A stretch of 35,381 nucleotides of DNA from the NCBI GenBank assembly GCA_021604005.1, contig BQIV01000044.1, forward strand, positions 1-35,381, read 5' to 3'. Positions 26,683-34,002 of this stretch are shown one piece after another. Each line of letters begins with the position of its first letter. Position 1 is the stretch's first letter. The stretch comes from Nitrospirales bacterium. Its GTDB lineage: Bacteria; Nitrospirota; Nitrospiria; Nitrospirales; UBA8639. The position numbers were made by a program, and so were the translations under genes. A model generated the notes under the pieces. That model ran no database searches, was not told where the DNA came from, and saw only the letters and a list, made by a program, of their open reading frames with translations.

Positions 26683-27822
26683 ATGAAACATGCTCATCAT
26701 CTCAAGACTTCTCGATTGACGGTCCCTGTTGCCTTAGGGCAACGCAGTTATGACATTCATATCCAGGAAGGCTTGCTTCACGATCTTGGTGAGTGTCTTC
26801 AGCAGACAGGACTTTCCGGTCGCGTGGCTATCGTGACCAATCCGCTTGTTCGTCGATTGTATGGAGGTACCGTCAATGCATCACTCAAGCGGAACGGGTT
26901 TCGCCCGCTCTTTATCGAAGTGCCGGATGGGGAACGCGCCAAGACGTTACACTGGGCATCCAAAATCATTAATCAGTTGGTGGCGCAACGCTTCGAACGA
27001 TCGGATATCCTTGTCGCGTTAGGTGGGGGAGTGGTCGGGGATATTGCAGGGTTTGCCGCATCGATGTATGTACGAGGCATTCCGTTTATCCAGGTCGCTA
27101 CAACATTGGTCGCGCAAGTTGATTCGAGTGTTGGAGGCAAAACGGGCGTCAACCACCGATTGGGGAAAAATCTCATTGGAGCATTTTATCAGCCCAAGAT
27201 GGTACTGATGGATACCCACACACTTCGCACACTATCGAAACGCGAATTGGTTGCAGGATTAGCCGAGGTGATTAAGTACGGAGTCATTTATGACCGTCAT
27301 TTTTTCCAGTATCTCGAAGATCACATGGAAGAAATTCTGAAATTACACACAGAACCGATTCAATATCTTGTCAAACGGTGTTGTGAAATTAAGGCAGAAG
27401 TTGTTGCGAAAGACGAGCGTGAGTCGGGATTGCGACGAATTTTAAACTATGGTCATACGGTTGGTCATGCGCTCGAATCCCTGTCTGGCTATCGTAAATT
27501 AATCCATGGGGAAGCCGTCGGTATTGGAATGGTACAAGAGGCTGATCTGGCGCATTCTCTCGGGCTCTGTTCCTCTGCGGTCGTGAAGCGGCAACGAGCA
27601 CTCGTTCAAAAAGCCGGGCTCTCGGATCAACTCCCCAAGATGACGTTTTCAGAATTTTGGACTGCTATGCAACATGACAAAAAAGTGGTCAAGGGGGATA
27701 TTCATTGTGTCGTTCCTAAGGCTATTGGGCGGGTTTCGGTCATTTCACTCGTGCAGCAGTCAGTGAAACAGTGGTTTGCTCAGAATCAATCGCGCCGCCA
27801 TCCATCTGGAGCAAAAACCTAA
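26683..27822 (+). CDS. aroB: 3-Dehydroquinate synthase
   Basis: 379 residues. Second enzyme of the shikimate pathway, DAHP to 3-dehydroquinate, using NAD+ and a divalent metal. VPDGERAKTLHWASKII, LVALGGGVVGDIAGFAASMY, TTLVAQVDSSVGGKTGVNH, ELVAGLAEVIKYGVI and LNYGHTVGHALESLSGY with HGEAVGIGM (metal ligands) are all intact. The pil-aroC-aroB order resembles the pilMNOPQ-aroK-aroB order of many proteobacteria. ATG 26683 was chosen by family length; the ribosome binding site is weak. Confidence 0.96.
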   Translation: MKHAHHLKTSRLTVPVALGQRSYDIHIQEGLLHDLGECLQQTGLSGRVAIVTNPLVRRLYGGTVNASLKRNGFRPLFIEVPDGERAKTLHWASKIINQLVAQRFERSDILVALGGGVVGDIAGFAASMYVRGIPFIQVATTLVAQVDSSVGGKTGVNHRLGKNLIGAFYQPKMVLMDTHTLRTLSKRELVAGLAEVIKYGVIYDRHFFQYLEDHMEEILKLHTEPIQYLVKRCCEIKAEVVAKDERESGLRRILNYGHTVGHALESLSGYRKLIHGEAVGIGMVQEADLAHSLGLCSSAVVKRQRALVQKAGLSDQLPKMTFSEFWTAMQHDKKVVKGDIHCVVPKAIGRVSVISLVQQSVKQWFAQNQSRRHPSGAKT

Positions 27823-28021: not shown

Positions 28022-29281
28022 ATGGGAAACAAACGATCACGAACCAGCGAAGATCTTAAGCAAAAATTGCGTGAGCGAACGCGGGAAGTCGACGTGTTGC
28101 ACCGAATCAGTAAGTCTATTAGCAGTACCTTGGATCTTCAAGCCGTGCTCAGGCATATTGTGGACGTTGTGGTGGAAGTGACGAAGGCCGATGCCTGTCT
28201 CCTCTATCTGTTGTCTGATCGTCGAGACGAATTAGTGTTGCGTGCCTCAAAAAACCCGCATCCGAAGTTGATTGGTCGCGTATCAATTGGGCTGGGTGAA
28301 GGTATTACTGGGTGGGTGGCACGAGAAAATATTCGTGTGGTGATACCGAAAAACGCTAGCGATGATCCACGATTCAAACTCTTTAATCGTCTACCGGAGG
28401 ATCGGTATCAGGCGTTTGTCTCTGTGCCGATTGAAAGCAAGGGTGTGGTTGTTGGCGTCATCAATGTGCAGCATAAACGCGCCAAACGTTATAGCGACGA
28501 ATCCTTAACCCTTCTCTCGACCATCGCCCATCAAGTTGGAGGGGCGATCGATAATGCCCGATTATACGAAGCAATGCAGTCGCGGGCCCTACAGCTCGAT
28601 ACCTTGTCCCAAGTGTCTGAAACGGTGGTGTCGAATCGGTTACTTGACGAGGTGCTTCAACTGATTGTGACGACGACGGCCCACATGACCAACTCAAAAA
28701 TATGCTCCATTATGCTGCTGGATGAACGGAAAGGGGAACTGCGGATCGAGGCCACACAAAGTTTGAGTGAACGCTATCGTCGCAAACCGGTCTTAACGAT
28801 TGGGAAAAGTATGAGTGGCCGTGCGATTAAAGAATTGCAGCCGATCTATGTTCCGGACGTCAAAACTGAAAAGGATTACTTCTATAAAGATCTCGCGAAA
28901 CAGGAGGGACTCTGTTCGTTAGTCTCGGTTCCGATGATCATGAAGGATACGGCCATTGGTGTGATTAATTGTTATACGTCGTCTGTGTACGAGTTTTCTG
29001 CTGAAGAAATCAAGTCGTTGCAAACTATCGCCAATCAAGCAGCTGTAGCCATTGCGCACACGAACGTGGTGGAAAAGTCTTTTGAAATGCAGGAGGCCTT
29101 AGAAGTTCGAAAGCTTGTGGATCGCGCGAAAGGCTATATCATGCAATCAAGAAAATTGTCAGAGCCCGAAGCGTTTCAACTCATTCAGCGACAAAGTATG
29201 AATTTGCGAAAATCCATGCGAGAAATAGCAGAGGCCATTATCCTTTCAGAAGAGCTGCAAGTTGCGACAAAAGGCTTATAA
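28022..29281 (+). CDS. GAF-GAF-ANTAR transcription antiterminator
   Basis: 419 residues. A short coiled lead (1-30), then two GAF sensor domains (about 35-185 with GLGEGITGWVARENIRVVIP and FVSVPIESKGVVVGVINVQH; about 205-350 with TIGKSMSGRAIKELQPIYVP and LVSVPMIMKDTAIGVINCY). The ANTAR domain is at about 359-412: VRKLVDRAKGYIMQSRKLSE, EAFQLIQRQSM, MREIAEAII. ANTAR proteins bind paired hexaloop hairpins in leader RNAs and prevent termination. The spacer before nadE contains exactly such a pair (29371-29427), so nadE is the likely target. The GAF ligand is unknown. Confidence 0.93.
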   Translation: MGNKRSRTSEDLKQKLRERTREVDVLHRISKSISSTLDLQAVLRHIVDVVVEVTKADACLLYLLSDRRDELVLRASKNPHPKLIGRVSIGLGEGITGWVARENIRVVIPKNASDDPRFKLFNRLPEDRYQAFVSVPIESKGVVVGVINVQHKRAKRYSDESLTLLSTIAHQVGGAIDNARLYEAMQSRALQLDTLSQVSETVVSNRLLDEVLQLIVTTTAHMTNSKICSIMLLDERKGELRIEATQSLSERYRRKPVLTIGKSMSGRAIKELQPIYVPDVKTEKDYFYKDLAKQEGLCSLVSVPMIMKDTAIGVINCYTSSVYEFSAEEIKSLQTIANQAAVAIAHTNVVEKSFEMQEALEVRKLVDRAKGYIMQSRKLSEPEAFQLIQRQSMNLRKSMREIAEAIILSEELQVATKGL

Positions 29282-29316: not shown

Positions 29317-29346
29317 TTGACACGTGAAGAGATTGATTGCTACTTC
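29317..29346 (+). promoter_or_regulatory. Weak candidate promoter for the nadE leader
   Basis: A perfect -35 TTGACA at 29317-29322 is followed 18 bases later by TACTTC (29341-29346), a poor -10. If used, the transcript would start near 29352 and carry both ANTAR hairpins and the terminator. Readthrough from the upstream gene is the alternative. Confidence 0.25.
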
Positions 29347-29370
29347 TAACGAACGGTAGTGAATGACGTG

Positions 29371-29427
29371 TGAGACAATGACGTCTCATCTCGAAACGAA
29401 TATGCGATAGTAGGACAAGGGCGTCCT
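29371..29427 (+). promoter_or_regulatory. Candidate ANTAR-binding tandem hairpins in the nadE leader
   Basis: Hairpin 1: TGAGAC (29371-29376) pairs with GTCTCA (29383-29388) around the hexaloop AATGAC. Hairpin 2: AGGAC (29412-29416) pairs with GTCCT (29423-29427) around the hexaloop AAGGGC. Both loops have six bases with A first and G fourth, the published ANTAR target rule. The 3' arm of hairpin 2 is also part of the 5' arm of the terminator at 29421, so the two structures exclude each other. The linker is 23 bases. Confidence 0.75.
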
Positions 29428-29458
29428 CACTCTGGGTGGAGTCGAGGGCGTTTTTTTT
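29421..29458 (+). terminator. Intrinsic terminator abutting the nadE start codon
   Basis: The 5' arm 29421-29432 (GCGTCCTCACTC) pairs with 29439-29451 through one bulged C (29443) around the loop TGGGTG; eight Ts (29451-29458) run directly into the nadE ATG at 29459. The 3' arm includes GAGGG (29444-29448), the only plausible ribosome binding site for nadE, so folding would also hide it. This is a regulated leader terminator rather than an end-of-gene terminator. Confidence 0.85.
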
Positions 29459-31246
29459 ATGCAGACATTTCGAATCGCCATGGTGCAAATGAATCCCATT
29501 CTAGGAGACTTGGACGGGAATGCCCAAGCGATTTGCCGGTGGCTAAAAGAGGCACGAAAAGCGAAGGCCGATGTGGTGGTGTTTCCCGAGTTGGCGGTGA
29601 CAGGATATCCTCCGGAGGATCTTCTGCTCAAGCCCAGGTTTCTGTATGACGCGAATCGCATGATGGAGCGTATTGTCAAGCAGAGCTATGGACTCAGTGC
29701 TGTCGTGGGTTGTCTTACCGGGAATTATCACAATGATGAGCCGCCGACACAGATTGTGCCGACCGCGCTCAGTCATCTCTACAATGCCGCGACGGTTATG
29801 GCTGACCGTCAGGTCTATGGAACGTACCGTAAACGATATCTGCCCAATTATGGCGTGTTTGATGAACGTCGCTATTTTCATCCTGGTCATAAAATTCCCG
29901 TCTTTGTGATGAATGGAATTGTTGTGGGCATTAATATTTGTGAAGATATTTGGTATCCGGATGGCCCTGCGCGTGTACAGGCCCTTGTCGGTGACGCCGA
30001 TCTGATTCTCAACATTAACGCGTCCCCGTATCAGTCCGGAAAGGGACAGAATCGTGAAAGAATGCTGGCCGTTCGTGCTCGTCAAAACGGCATCCCTGTG
30101 AGTTACACGAATATGGTAGGTGGGCAAGACGAACTTGTATTTGATGGGAATAGCATGATCGTCAGTGAAGAGGGGCAGGTCATAGCCCGCGGCAAGGCGT
30201 TTGAAGAAGATTTTCTCGTGACGGACCTTTGTCTTGGTCGCTCCACGCGCGCTCAGCCGTCAGTCAAGGCTAAAGCCCGTGCCACGAAAAAATTCGAGAA
30301 GCAGATCGAACGGGTGATCGTCTCAGCCGCTTCAGCTTTTCCCACACGGACGTGCATTACCTCACGATTAACCCCTGCGCTTGATTCGCCTGAGGATGTG
30401 TATCGAGCTCTGGTGCTCGGAGTGCATGATTATGTGAAAAAGAACCAGTTTACGAAAGTGCTCATTGGTATCAGTGGCGGGATCGATTCGGCGTTAACGG
30501 CGGTGATTGCGAGAGATGCGCTCGGTTCGAATAATGTGCTTGGGGTCCTGATGCCCTCGCCGTATACCTCTCGAGCAAGTCGAGAAGACGCCCGAGCTTT
30601 GGCCGATGAACTTGAAATGGAACTTCTCGAAATCCCGATTGGGCGTCTCCTTCGCTCGTACCTGCAATTGCTTGACGGTCCTTTCGATGGCCGGCCTCCG
30701 GATACGACGGAGGAAAATCTTCAAGCCAGAATTCGAGGGAATCTGTTGATGGCCCTGTCGAATAAGTTTGGATATTTAGTTTTGACGACCGGAAATAAAA
30801 GCGAAATGAGTGTGGGCTATGCCACGCTGTACGGGGATATGGCTGGAGGGTTTGCGGTCATCAAAGATGTGCCCAAGACGTTGGTCTTTGCATTGGCACG
30901 TTGGCGAAGTCTGTACCGGGGGGACGCATTTTCTAACTTGAAAATCCCGCAACGTATTCAAGAGCGGCCTCCATCGGCTGAGCTGAAGGATAATCAATTG
31001 GACCAAGATACCTTGCCGCCCTATGCTGTCTTAGATGAGATTTTACGAGCGTATGTGGAAGAGGATCGATCTCCGCAAGACATTGCGGCCCTTGGCTTCA
31101 AGCTGCCCCTCGTGAAAAAAGTCATTGCGATGGTCGATCGAAGCGAGTACAAGCGTCGGCAAGCCCCCATTGGGATAAAGATTACACCAAGGGCGCTCGG
31201 AAAAGACCGCCGCATGCCGATTACCAATCGATATCCGCATTCATGA
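29459..31246 (+). CDS. nadE: Glutamine-dependent NAD+ synthetase
   Basis: 595 residues. The N-terminal glutaminase (nitrilase) domain carries the E44 / K125 / C161 triad (VFPELAVTGYPPEDL, RKRYLPNYGVFDERRYF, GINICEDIWYP). The C-terminal synthetase domain has the PPi loop SGGIDS at 339-344, TTGNKSEMSVGYATLYGDMA and PQRIQERPPSAELKDNQ. It amidates deamido-NAD+ with ammonia drawn from glutamine, the last NAD+ step, so its flux follows nitrogen supply. The ATG lies immediately after a terminator T-run, with upstream ANTAR-type hairpins. Confidence 0.97.
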   Translation: MQTFRIAMVQMNPILGDLDGNAQAICRWLKEARKAKADVVVFPELAVTGYPPEDLLLKPRFLYDANRMMERIVKQSYGLSAVVGCLTGNYHNDEPPTQIVPTALSHLYNAATVMADRQVYGTYRKRYLPNYGVFDERRYFHPGHKIPVFVMNGIVVGINICEDIWYPDGPARVQALVGDADLILNINASPYQSGKGQNRERMLAVRARQNGIPVSYTNMVGGQDELVFDGNSMIVSEEGQVIARGKAFEEDFLVTDLCLGRSTRAQPSVKAKARATKKFEKQIERVIVSAASAFPTRTCITSRLTPALDSPEDVYRALVLGVHDYVKKNQFTKVLIGISGGIDSALTAVIARDALGSNNVLGVLMPSPYTSRASREDARALADELEMELLEIPIGRLLRSYLQLLDGPFDGRPPDTTEENLQARIRGNLLMALSNKFGYLVLTTGNKSEMSVGYATLYGDMAGGFAVIKDVPKTLVFALARWRSLYRGDAFSNLKIPQRIQERPPSAELKDNQLDQDTLPPYAVLDEILRAYVEEDRSPQDIAALGFKLPLVKKVIAMVDRSEYKRRQAPIGIKITPRALGKDRRMPITNRYPHS

Positions 31247-31296: not shown

Positions 31297-34002
31297 ATGA
31301 GTGATTCAATTCAGACTCATGACCCTGAACCGAATCATCCGGATTCCCCTACACGTTCAACTCAGACGATGCTTCACGCGCGCCGCGAAGATTTGCGTCG
31401 GCAACTTGTTCATGGTTCACCGGGCTCTGCGATTGTGGAGGCGCTTACCGACCTTGTCGATGAGGCGTTAATCAGTCAATATCGGCATCTTCTCCATCAA
31501 GCCAGTCAGGCCGCGGCTGCAGATGTCCAACGTTGCTGTCTGGTGGCGGTTGGCGGCTACGGCCGGCGAGAATTAGCTCCCTATTCGGATGTAGATGTGA
31601 TGCTGTTATCGGAAGCCTCCAGTGACTCTCACGCGGTCTCGGACTTATCAAAAGGGCTCTTTCATCATTTATGGGATTTGGGATTTCAAGTTGGACACAG
31701 TGTTCGCGCCATTTCAGAAGCTCTGGCACTGGCGGATGCCGACTTGCCAGCCAAAACCGCATTGATGGAGTCACGTTTCCTTGCGGGAAATCCTGAGGTA
31801 TTTCAAGATTTCCGGAACCGATTTGCCCGTCGAAATTTGGATAAACGTGTGCCTCAATTTATCCAGCAAAAACTCGAAGAACGTCAACGGGATTACGCGA
31901 AGTTTGGGGAAACCGTCTTTTTACTTGAACCCAATATTAAGAAAAGTCAAGGCGGGTTACGCGACCTTCATCTCTTGCAATGGGTTGGAATGGCGAAATA
32001 TCAAGCGTCTACTATTCAAGACTTAACCAATTGCGGAGTCATTGCACGGACAGACGCACTGGCCATACAGGAAGCTCGAGAGTTTTTATGGCGCATTCGA
32101 TGCCTGATGCATTTTGATGCAGGGAGAGCGCAAGATATTTTGACCTTTGAAGATCAGGAGCGGTTAGCGATGAATATGGGTTTGACCGATCAGCCGCATT
32201 TGCTGGCTGTCGAACAATTTATGCAGCAGTACTATCGCCATACCATGGGCCTCCATGATCGATGTATGCGTTTTATCGATAGGACAAGAGAGTTTCCATG
32301 GTGGAAGCGATTATGGCATTCCATCCCTTCATCCTTAATTGAAGGATCCTTCCTCAAGGTTGGAGATCGGCTGACCGTTCCCTCTGAGAAGTTGATCCAG
32401 GTATTAGGAAAACCGGAATTGCTCGTTCGCCTGTTTCGACTTAGCCAAGAGCGTGGATTGCCTGTTGATAGCCAAACGATAGAAGAACTGTATTATGCTG
32501 TGCATGATATTCCCAATGAACAATTTCATACACCGAACGTGAGTCGTATATTCCGGGCAATTCTTTCCGACACGGGGCGTGTGGCTCAGACCTTGACCGC
32601 GATGCATCGAGCCACGCTTTTGGAAAAACTCGTCCCGGCATTTGCCCGTGTTCGAGGATTGATGCAATTCAATCAATATCATAAATACACGGTTGATGAA
32701 CATAGCCTCCTGGCCGTTCGACAGGCCGAGTTGTTAGCCGCGAATCAGGGAACACTTGGAAAAGTCTATGCTGAAATTAAACAGAAAGATCTGCTGCATC
32801 TAGCCCTCTTGCTTCATGATCTCGGAAAAGGAAAGTCCGAAGACCACAGTGATGTTGGAAAGGTGATTGCGCATAAGACCTCAGAGCGTCTGGGCTTGAC
32901 ACATGACGAGAGTCAGATGTTGGAGTTTCTCGTGCATAAGCATCTCTTAATGGCGCATACCGCATTTCGTCGGGACATTCATGATGAGAAAGTTATTCAA
33001 ACATTCGCACGTGTGGTCAAGACTACAGAAATTTTGCGGCAGTTTTTAATCTTAACGGTTGCAGACATTGCCGCCGTTGGGCCTGATGTGATGAATAAAT
33101 GGAAAGAGACGCTCTTGATCGAATTATTTTCACACACACACGACACGCTTGCCGGTCATGGGGATTTACGGCTAGATGAACAAGAGAAGCAACAGCAAGT
33201 GCAGGACGTTTACCTACAGCTTTGTCAGGCTGAGCCAACACAAGATTCTGTCGCACATCATGCAGCGCCTGATAAACAGTGGGTCCAAGAACAATTATCT
33301 CAGTTTCCGGCCCGTTATCGGTCGAGTACATCTTTAGAGCGTATTGTGCTGCATCTAGCCGCTATCGAACGATTGTCCTCTGATGCTCCGTTGGTTGAAA
33401 CGCAGTATCATGCCGATTTGAACGTGACGGAATATACCTTGCTAGCCCGCGGGGGCAATAAGCCGGGCATTTTTATGAATATGACCGGAGTGTTGGCGGC
33501 GCTGGGTTTGGAAGTGCTTGATGCACAAATTCTGACCAGAAAAGATGGCATTGTTGTCGATTCGTTTTCGGTCAAAGACCCAGACTATGATGGGGCTCCT
33601 CCTCCCAGAAGGCTGGAGCGAGTCTGTCAGACCGTCATTTCGGTATTGAAAGGCGAAGACACGGTTGATCAAGTATTTGAACGAGGAAAACGAGTCGTCT
33701 TTGGTCGACTCTATCCCACGGGTCGGAATGAAACAGAAGTGCAAATTAATAATGATAGTTCAGATCAACATACGGTGATCGAGGTGTTTGCCGATGATAA
33801 GCAAGGACTGCTCTTTGTGATCGCCAGGGCGTTAGTTGGCTTGGGACTTTCCATTCACTCTGCGAGAATTGGTAAGCGATTGGATCAAGCTGCCGATGTT
33901 TTTTATGTTACAGCGGATGGTCAGAAAATCGAAGATCCACAGATCTGCACGCGTATTCAAGAAACCCTACGAAAAGAAGTGGACAAGTTTCTTGATGAGT
34001 AG
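31297..34002 (+). CDS. glnD: Bifunctional uridylyltransferase / UR enzyme of PII
   Basis: 901 residues in four parts: nucleotidyltransferase with GGYGRRELAPYSDVDVML (GGYGR 86-90, D98, D100), FLLEPNIKKSQGGLRDLHLL, an HD hydrolase domain with H507-D508 (LLLHDLGKGKSEDHSDVG), and two C-terminal ACT domains from about 712 (KPGIFMNMTGVLAALGLEVL) and 825 (DKQGLLFVIARALVGLGLSI). GlnD senses glutamine and uridylylates or deuridylylates PII proteins. It lies 50 bp after nadE in the same direction, so the two may be co-transcribed and share the ANTAR-controlled leader. Confidence 0.97.
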   Translation: MSDSIQTHDPEPNHPDSPTRSTQTMLHARREDLRRQLVHGSPGSAIVEALTDLVDEALISQYRHLLHQASQAAAADVQRCCLVAVGGYGRRELAPYSDVDVMLLSEASSDSHAVSDLSKGLFHHLWDLGFQVGHSVRAISEALALADADLPAKTALMESRFLAGNPEVFQDFRNRFARRNLDKRVPQFIQQKLEERQRDYAKFGETVFLLEPNIKKSQGGLRDLHLLQWVGMAKYQASTIQDLTNCGVIARTDALAIQEAREFLWRIRCLMHFDAGRAQDILTFEDQERLAMNMGLTDQPHLLAVEQFMQQYYRHTMGLHDRCMRFIDRTREFPWWKRLWHSIPSSLIEGSFLKVGDRLTVPSEKLIQVLGKPELLVRLFRLSQERGLPVDSQTIEELYYAVHDIPNEQFHTPNVSRIFRAILSDTGRVAQTLTAMHRATLLEKLVPAFARVRGLMQFNQYHKYTVDEHSLLAVRQAELLAANQGTLGKVYAEIKQKDLLHLALLLHDLGKGKSEDHSDVGKVIAHKTSERLGLTHDESQMLEFLVHKHLLMAHTAFRRDIHDEKVIQTFARVVKTTEILRQFLILTVADIAAVGPDVMNKWKETLLIELFSHTHDTLAGHGDLRLDEQEKQQQVQDVYLQLCQAEPTQDSVAHHAAPDKQWVQEQLSQFPARYRSSTSLERIVLHLAAIERLSSDAPLVETQYHADLNVTEYTLLARGGNKPGIFMNMTGVLAALGLEVLDAQILTRKDGIVVDSFSVKDPDYDGAPPPRRLERVCQTVISVLKGEDTVDQVFERGKRVVFGRLYPTGRNETEVQINNDSSDQHTVIEVFADDKQGLLFVIARALVGLGLSIHSARIGKRLDQAADVFYVTADGQKIEDPQICTRIQETLRKEVDKFLDE

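Follow-up and report, generated by a model that had tools for sequence, protein, structure and literature searches.

Known ANTAR systems and the present locus

Among the described ANTAR systems, the eutP leader of Enterococcus faecalis, on which EutV acts, carries two hairpins whose hexaloops have A at position 1 and G at position 4 and are closed by a C:G pair, and its second hairpin (P2) and an intrinsic terminator exclude each other (PMC3369931, PMC8934654). EutV is a phosphorylated response regulator of ethanolamine genes, and the hairpins of eut leaders are separated by a linker of 5-12 bases, the lengthening of which abolishes EutV action (PMC3369931, PMC8934654). In the NasR/nasF system of Klebsiella oxytoca, where the same loop rule has been obtained by SELEX, a one-component sensor combines an ANTAR domain with a NIT nitrate-sensing domain and acts on the nitrate assimilation operon (PMC7496416). 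Nitrogen regulons have also been predicted by Ramesh et al. (2012) in Desulfotomaculum and Pelobacter; according to the main text of that survey, several operons per genome stand behind dual-hexaloop terminators, with PII and ammonium transporters among the targets, and the same main text names no nadE, glnD or Nitrospira (PMC3369931). A biochemical link between NAD+ synthesis and PII/GlnD nitrogen signalling has been described as well, in which PII controls the activity of the NadE-Gln enzyme, and PII-nadE gene islands have been reported, Nitrospirae included (PMC7196632).

The locus presented here is a leader preceding nadE in a Nitrospirales bacterium, and the window, meaning the whole stretch of DNA that was analysed, comprises 35,381 nucleotides. 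In soils, seas and treatment plants, Nitrospira and its relatives oxidise nitrite, and some of them perform the whole of nitrification. It is very probable that this leader is an ANTAR-type transcription antitermination switch run by the neighbouring GAF-GAF-ANTAR protein. It resembles the eutP leader in its two hexaloop hairpins, its C:G closing pairs, the mutual exclusion of P2 and terminator, and an ANTAR domain that can be aligned with that of EutV and keeps most of the RNA contacts; it differs in the one-component GAF-GAF sensor, the nadE-glnD target and a linker of 22 bases. With NasR it shares the one-component architecture, a nitrogen target and the loop rule, but two GAF domains are present instead of a NIT domain. 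Whereas PII acts on the NadE-Gln enzyme, what these genes share here is a switch at the level of the RNA. The mode of antitermination is that already described for ANTAR proteins (PMC3369931, PMC8934654, PMC7496416).

A literature search for ANTAR together with Nitrospira or with NAD synthetase returned nothing relevant, and in the Nitrospira literature searched nitrogen-assimilation genes are described and no switch controlling them was found. Neither the nadE target nor the Nitrospirales regulon was found in the literature searched; priority is not certain, since 'Candidatus Nitrospira defluvii' was reportedly sequenced before the 2012 ANTAR survey, whose supplementary tables may cover it. 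The ANTAR nitrogen cascade known from Geobacter did not turn up in the literature searched and was not used as evidence. Anatomy, conservation, covariation, co-occurrence and regulon content of the switch were obtained by computation, and the features of the window are as follows.

26683..27822, + strand: aroB, upstream neighbour of the ANTAR gene, with a DHQ synthase domain; a synteny marker outside the switch
28022..29281, + strand: GAF-GAF-ANTAR regulator gene, 419 aa (Pfam GAF_2, 2.5e-44, in two stretches; ANTAR PF03861, 5.3e-20)
29087-29242, + strand: ANTAR domain, residues 356-407 (Pfam PF03861)
29317..29345, + strand: putative sigma-70 leader promoter (TTGACA, 17 bases, CTACTT), its -10 element weak here
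29370..29389, + strand: P1 (recruitment) hairpin, from the fold, 7 pairs, GTGAGAC-AATGAC-GTCTCAT, hexaloop AATGAC at 29377-29382
29390..29411, + strand: P1-P2 linker, 22 bases, unconserved in relatives (0.28 bits per column)
29412..29427, + strand: P2 (antiterminator) hairpin, 5 pairs, AGGAC-AAGGGC-GTCCT, hexaloop AAGGGC at 29417-29422
29422..29458, + strand: intrinsic terminator, stem 29422-29432 with 29439-29450, followed by T8 at 29451-29458
29459..31246, + strand: nadE, glutamine-dependent NAD+ synthetase, 595 aa (CN_hydrolase 6.5e-35, NAD_synthase 2e-73)
31297..34002, + strand: glnD, PII uridylyltransferase, 901 aa (GlnD_UR_UTase 6.8e-37), about 50 bases after nadE

Anatomy of the leader

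The two hexaloop hairpins, which a sequence-only reading had proposed, are present in both sequence and fold, although the start it assigned to them, 29371, lies one base inside P1. Both loops fit the ANTAR rule of A at position 1 and G at position 4, and their stems of 7 and 5 pairs compare with a required minimum of at least 3. Each loop is closed by a C:G pair (C29376-G29383 in P1, C29416-G29423 in P2) that is invariant in 41 sequences. The base stem of the terminator pairs CGTCCTC (29422-29428) with GAGGGCG (29444-29450) and is extended by 29429-29432/29439-29442. The overlap of P2 with the 5' arm of the terminator, and a T8 run touching the nadE ATG at 29459, had likewise been read from the sequence and are exact to the base. 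Since bases 29422-29427, comprising the last P2 loop base and the entire P2 3' arm, are used in both structures, P2 and the terminator are mutually exclusive folds. Computed folding energies are about -8.2 kcal/mol for P1, -5.6 for P2 and -16.0 for the terminator; therefore, termination would be the default and P2 would need help.

The arrangement of hexaloop hairpins and terminator matched once in the real window against 0.007 per shuffled window (one match in 150 dinucleotide shuffles, both strands), and for GGACAANGNCGTCCTC the window has a single occurrence where 0.02 would be expected. Taken alone, the folding energy of the whole leader is unremarkable (z = -1.1) and hence uninformative, so the case for the switch rests on arrangement and conservation. 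The 22-base linker exceeds the 5-12 bases of eut leaders, which counts against the switch in view of what lengthening does there; the published motif definition calls the linker 'variable', and the loop-to-loop distance is 35-52 in aligned relatives. At gathering thresholds Rfam gave zero matches within the window, with no ANTAR leader family above threshold. A simple terminator scan misses the terminator of the nadE leader, probably on account of a bulge in the stem, and the putative promoter falls below threshold in a simple consensus scan. Related leaders have promoter-like sequences upstream of P1, with TTGACA or TTGAAC, 17 bases, and TATAAT or a TACAAG-like element.

Conservation and covariation in relatives

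One scan of named genomes yielded 80 loci with orthologues 69-92% identical, nearly all titled Nitrospirota or Nitrospira, and the aroB-ANTAR order is found in all named loci whose sequence spans the site. In 35 loci nadE lies downstream of the ANTAR gene, within 600 bases, followed by glnD in most of those with enough contig. When these 35 nadE leaders were searched for hexaloop hairpins of any loop sequence that overlap a terminator, 26 were found to have P2 and terminator; position 4 of the P2 loop is G in 26/26, and position 1 is A in 23/26 and G in 3/26. Of the nine leaders missed by this search, five (L007, L017, L020, L073, L079) do carry the element, its stem being shorter, and at the remaining four loci (L018, L051, L070, L071) nadE lacks a leader of this kind.

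Covariation was assessed in alignment A1, which comprises 41 sequences. Its loop statistics were excluded as evidence because the pattern by which its sequences were selected fixed G at position 4, and the loop-blind search was used in their place. P1 has both-sided changes at 5 of its 7 pairs; P1 and P2 together show 42 double-change cells, all of them within P1, compared with 11 in shuffles; of their cells, 92% are paired against 40-58% when slid. The base stem of the terminator is 98% paired in relatives, with covariation present, and RNAalifold on this alignment recovers P1 and the terminator unaided. P2 is too conserved for covariation: per column its 5' arm carries 1.76 bits and its loop 1.52, compared with 0.28 for the linker. 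The GGAC of the P2 5' arm is near-invariant (one A-to-G in 41), though superfluous for the terminator. At tandem sites elsewhere P2 has a C-G pair in place of the usual A-U (ACGGAC...GTCCGT). Thus, the alignment of related leaders that had been suggested as a check retains the hexaloops and the terminator overlap and contains compensatory changes in P1, but P1 does not persist throughout: in one subclade (L017, L033, L054, L055, L059, L062) the nadE leaders keep P2 and the terminator and have lost the canonical P1. P2 alone may suffice there, or the switch may be decaying; these may be single-hexaloop ANTAR switches. Binding to a single hexaloop has been proposed for ANTAR proteins (PMC8934654), consistent with P2 alone sufficing.

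The conserved features also bear on whether the hairpin acts on translation instead of termination, hiding a Shine-Dalgarno-like GAGG that P2 formation would expose. GAGGGCG (29444-29450), in the 3' arm of the terminator, is the only such sequence ahead of nadE, the ATG abuts the U-tract in many relatives, and translation control by ANTAR RNAs has been proposed for some sites (PMC3369931). On the other hand, all kept leaders retain at least 5 T immediately 3' of the terminator stem, which translation control does not require, and in Nitrospira the U-tract lies 100-160 bases from nadE, so that the hairpin cannot hide the start site there. Control of translation instead of termination is accordingly very improbable; since the terminator fold hides the sole ribosome-binding-like sequence, translation may be gated in addition to antitermination.

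Co-occurrence of the ANTAR gene and the RNA

The same set of 118 genomes from the order was searched with the Pfam ANTAR model and with a covariance model (R1) built from related leaders; the training set of R1 includes the window, whose own score is not independent. Both the gene and the RNA were found in 90 genomes and neither in 24. The covariance model, a check proposed from the sequence alone, thus finds the element almost only where an ANTAR gene is present, with four discordant genomes, two of them having only the ANTAR gene (G197, G283) and two only the RNA (G167 and, with a weak match, G296). The Fisher p value for co-occurrence is 1.5e-20, a figure that ignores kinship among genomes. 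The genomes lacking gene and RNA belong to no fewer than two groups (a portion of genus g7, and family f40), which indicates at least two independent losses. In the Nitrospira of genus g7 that have no ANTAR gene, none of 9 readable nadE leaders has a U-tract terminator, a T-run of six or a hexaloop hairpin near the nadE start. R1 gave few matches in more distant families of the class. The RNA match in G167 (C17:157078-157173) is strong, and no ANTAR domain was found in that genome, which may reflect an assembly gap or recent gene loss.

These distributions are relevant to the reading in which an ordinary terminator closes the aroB-ANTAR transcript and the hexaloops arose by accident. A strong intrinsic terminator downstream of the ANTAR gene is what that reading would predict, but the T-run abuts the nadE ATG, so that no promoter fits between terminator and nadE, and promoter-like sequences lie upstream of P1. 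Moreover, termination needs neither the 5' arm nor the loop of P2, yet both are conserved, and the element is lost together with the ANTAR gene and is also found far from it. Such an origin is scarcely credible, and the accident and plain-terminator readings were rejected on P2 5' arm conservation and co-loss with ANTAR.

The GAF-GAF-ANTAR protein

The gene just upstream of the leader had been described as encoding a GAF-GAF-ANTAR protein, and Pfam agrees, with the GAF and ANTAR domains all above curated cut-offs and on one chain, which defines the one-component class. A search of the whole genome found exactly one ANTAR domain, the one next to the nadE leader, and every ANTAR-positive genome among the 118 likewise has exactly one ANTAR gene. 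Because this genome has a single ANTAR domain, the leader has no candidate ligand other than the neighbouring protein.

The ANTAR domain can be aligned with those of RNA-bound EutV, Rv1626, NasR and AmiR. Taking the list of ten EutV RNA contacts from the literature (PMC8934654), six are identical here (R142, K143, E160, M172, N173 and R175, corresponding to R363, K364, E381, M393, N394 and R396) and two are conservative replacements (K147 to R, Y164 to F), while two are changed (R168 to Q, R177 to S), a point against the antitermination reading. The solved structures nearest to GAF1 are a GAF protein (3e0y), PtsP GAF domains (3ci6, 3trc) and the NifA-like nlh1 GAF. As GAF1 resembles the PtsP GAF, which has been reported to bind glutamine (PMC4848567), glutamine or 2-oxoglutarate would be a reasonable guess, by analogy, for the signal perceived by the protein.

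nadE and glnD as probable targets

The nadE product consists of a CN-hydrolase (glutaminase) domain fused to NAD synthase, as in NadE-Gln. The sequence-only reading omitted glnD, which lies downstream and is probably on the same transcript: since glnD begins about 50 bases after nadE, the unit under control is probably the nadE-glnD operon, an order that most relatives in the family share. Joint control of the two genes would be sensible, because PII, GlnD and NadE-Gln are already known to be connected biochemically (PMC7196632). The proposal that the ANTAR protein controls nadE by antitermination thus receives support from the comparative tests, on sequence grounds, with the amendment that the unit is nadE-glnD and one site of a wider nitrogen regulon.

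Given its role in nitrogen signalling, glnD might be the target that matters, nadE being merely the first gene of the operon. The usual nadE-glnD order in the family would agree with this, as would the ANTAR leaders that precede glnD at other sites. In two genomes (G141, G155), however, nadE is separate from glnD: a leader of its own precedes it and a convergent gene comes next, while porin-amtB-PII-glnD is found elsewhere behind another leader; furthermore, four loci (L048, L073, L078, L080) retain the nadE leader with glnD at least 1.7 kb downstream. Since nadE has a switch to itself in G141 and G155, it is a target independently of glnD, and that glnD is the one that matters is unlikely. 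A 'glnD only' reading is weakened by the gene order in these two genomes.

A wider nitrogen regulon

The nadE switch is, as far as sequence comparison can tell, part of a Nitrospirales-wide nitrogen regulon. A second strong R1 site in this genome (C54:17376-17470, E 3.5e-6), which did not belong to the training set, precedes a sigma-54 activator-like gene, behind which come a formate/nitrite transporter (FNT) and NirA. The interval between activator and transporter (L145 5863-6016) contains a -24/-12-like TGGCAAAGGACTTGC and then a single hairpin with hexaloop AAAGGC that overlaps a second terminator, which suggests two-layer control and a possible feed-forward loop at the activator locus, from one site read by eye. 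In relatives, R1 sites precede porin-amtB-PII-glnD, the urea-transport gene urtA together with those that follow, a nitrate/cyanate-type ABC transporter, cyanase, FNT-cyanase-nirA, nadE and, at some sites, unknown outer-membrane proteins. AmtB (PF00909), an expected target, was sought in this genome and is absent; the genome is rated 100% complete, and 14/14 control genomes were positive.

Several leader variants have been observed in the order. Leaders of nitrite-assimilation genes have seven-base P2 loops instead of six (AATGGAC, AATGGGC, AATTGGC, AATGAAC), namely at L145 4377-4471, L149 4812-4899, L150 4484-4572, L151 649-745 and L153 371-466. Tandem pairs of complete ANTAR switches stand ahead of FNT transporter or cyanase genes in Nitrospira (L165 12517-12722, L175 5077-5282, L176 1013-1213, L182 326-533, L183 6106-6311). 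Putative outer-membrane proteins lead several controlled operons, mostly before transporter genes (L169, L170, L179, L180, L181), and one such protein has no Pfam match at all.

Proposed mechanism and significance

In the proposed mechanism, the leader RNA with P1 and P2 would start at a promoter just behind the ANTAR gene. By default, the 3' arm of P2 would pair with GAGGGCG and RNA polymerase would halt at the U-tract ahead of the nadE ATG. The activated GAF-GAF-ANTAR protein would bind P1, shift to P2 and keep it closed, and the polymerase would then continue into nadE and glnD. We infer binding, readthrough, signal and direction, the last being induction under nitrogen limitation. Nitrogen status is the likely signal, since nearly all targets of this protein that can be recognised across the order have to do with nitrogen supply or signalling. 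More broadly, and tentatively, one GAF-GAF-ANTAR protein could plausibly be the main nitrogen regulator of Nitrospirales, sensing glutamine or 2-oxoglutarate via GAF1 and opening switches for nadE, glnD/PII, the uptake of ammonium, urea, cyanate and nitrite, and a sigma-54 activator; as the operon targeted by this activator has another hexaloop-terminator, a feed-forward loop would result. If true, an RNA-level connection would couple NAD+ synthesis to nitrogen starvation.

A regulon with one protein and one motif offers a testable circuit for nitrite-oxidising bacteria. The P1-less, seven-base-loop and tandem leader variants provide natural material on the roles of P1 and of linker length, following the EutV-RNA structure. 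That nitrogen control would include NAD+ synthetase among its RNA-switch targets agrees with what is known biochemically of PII and NadE (PMC7196632). If the ANTAR protein opens the switch, as it very probably does, NAD synthesis would be part of the nitrogen-starvation circuit of these organisms.
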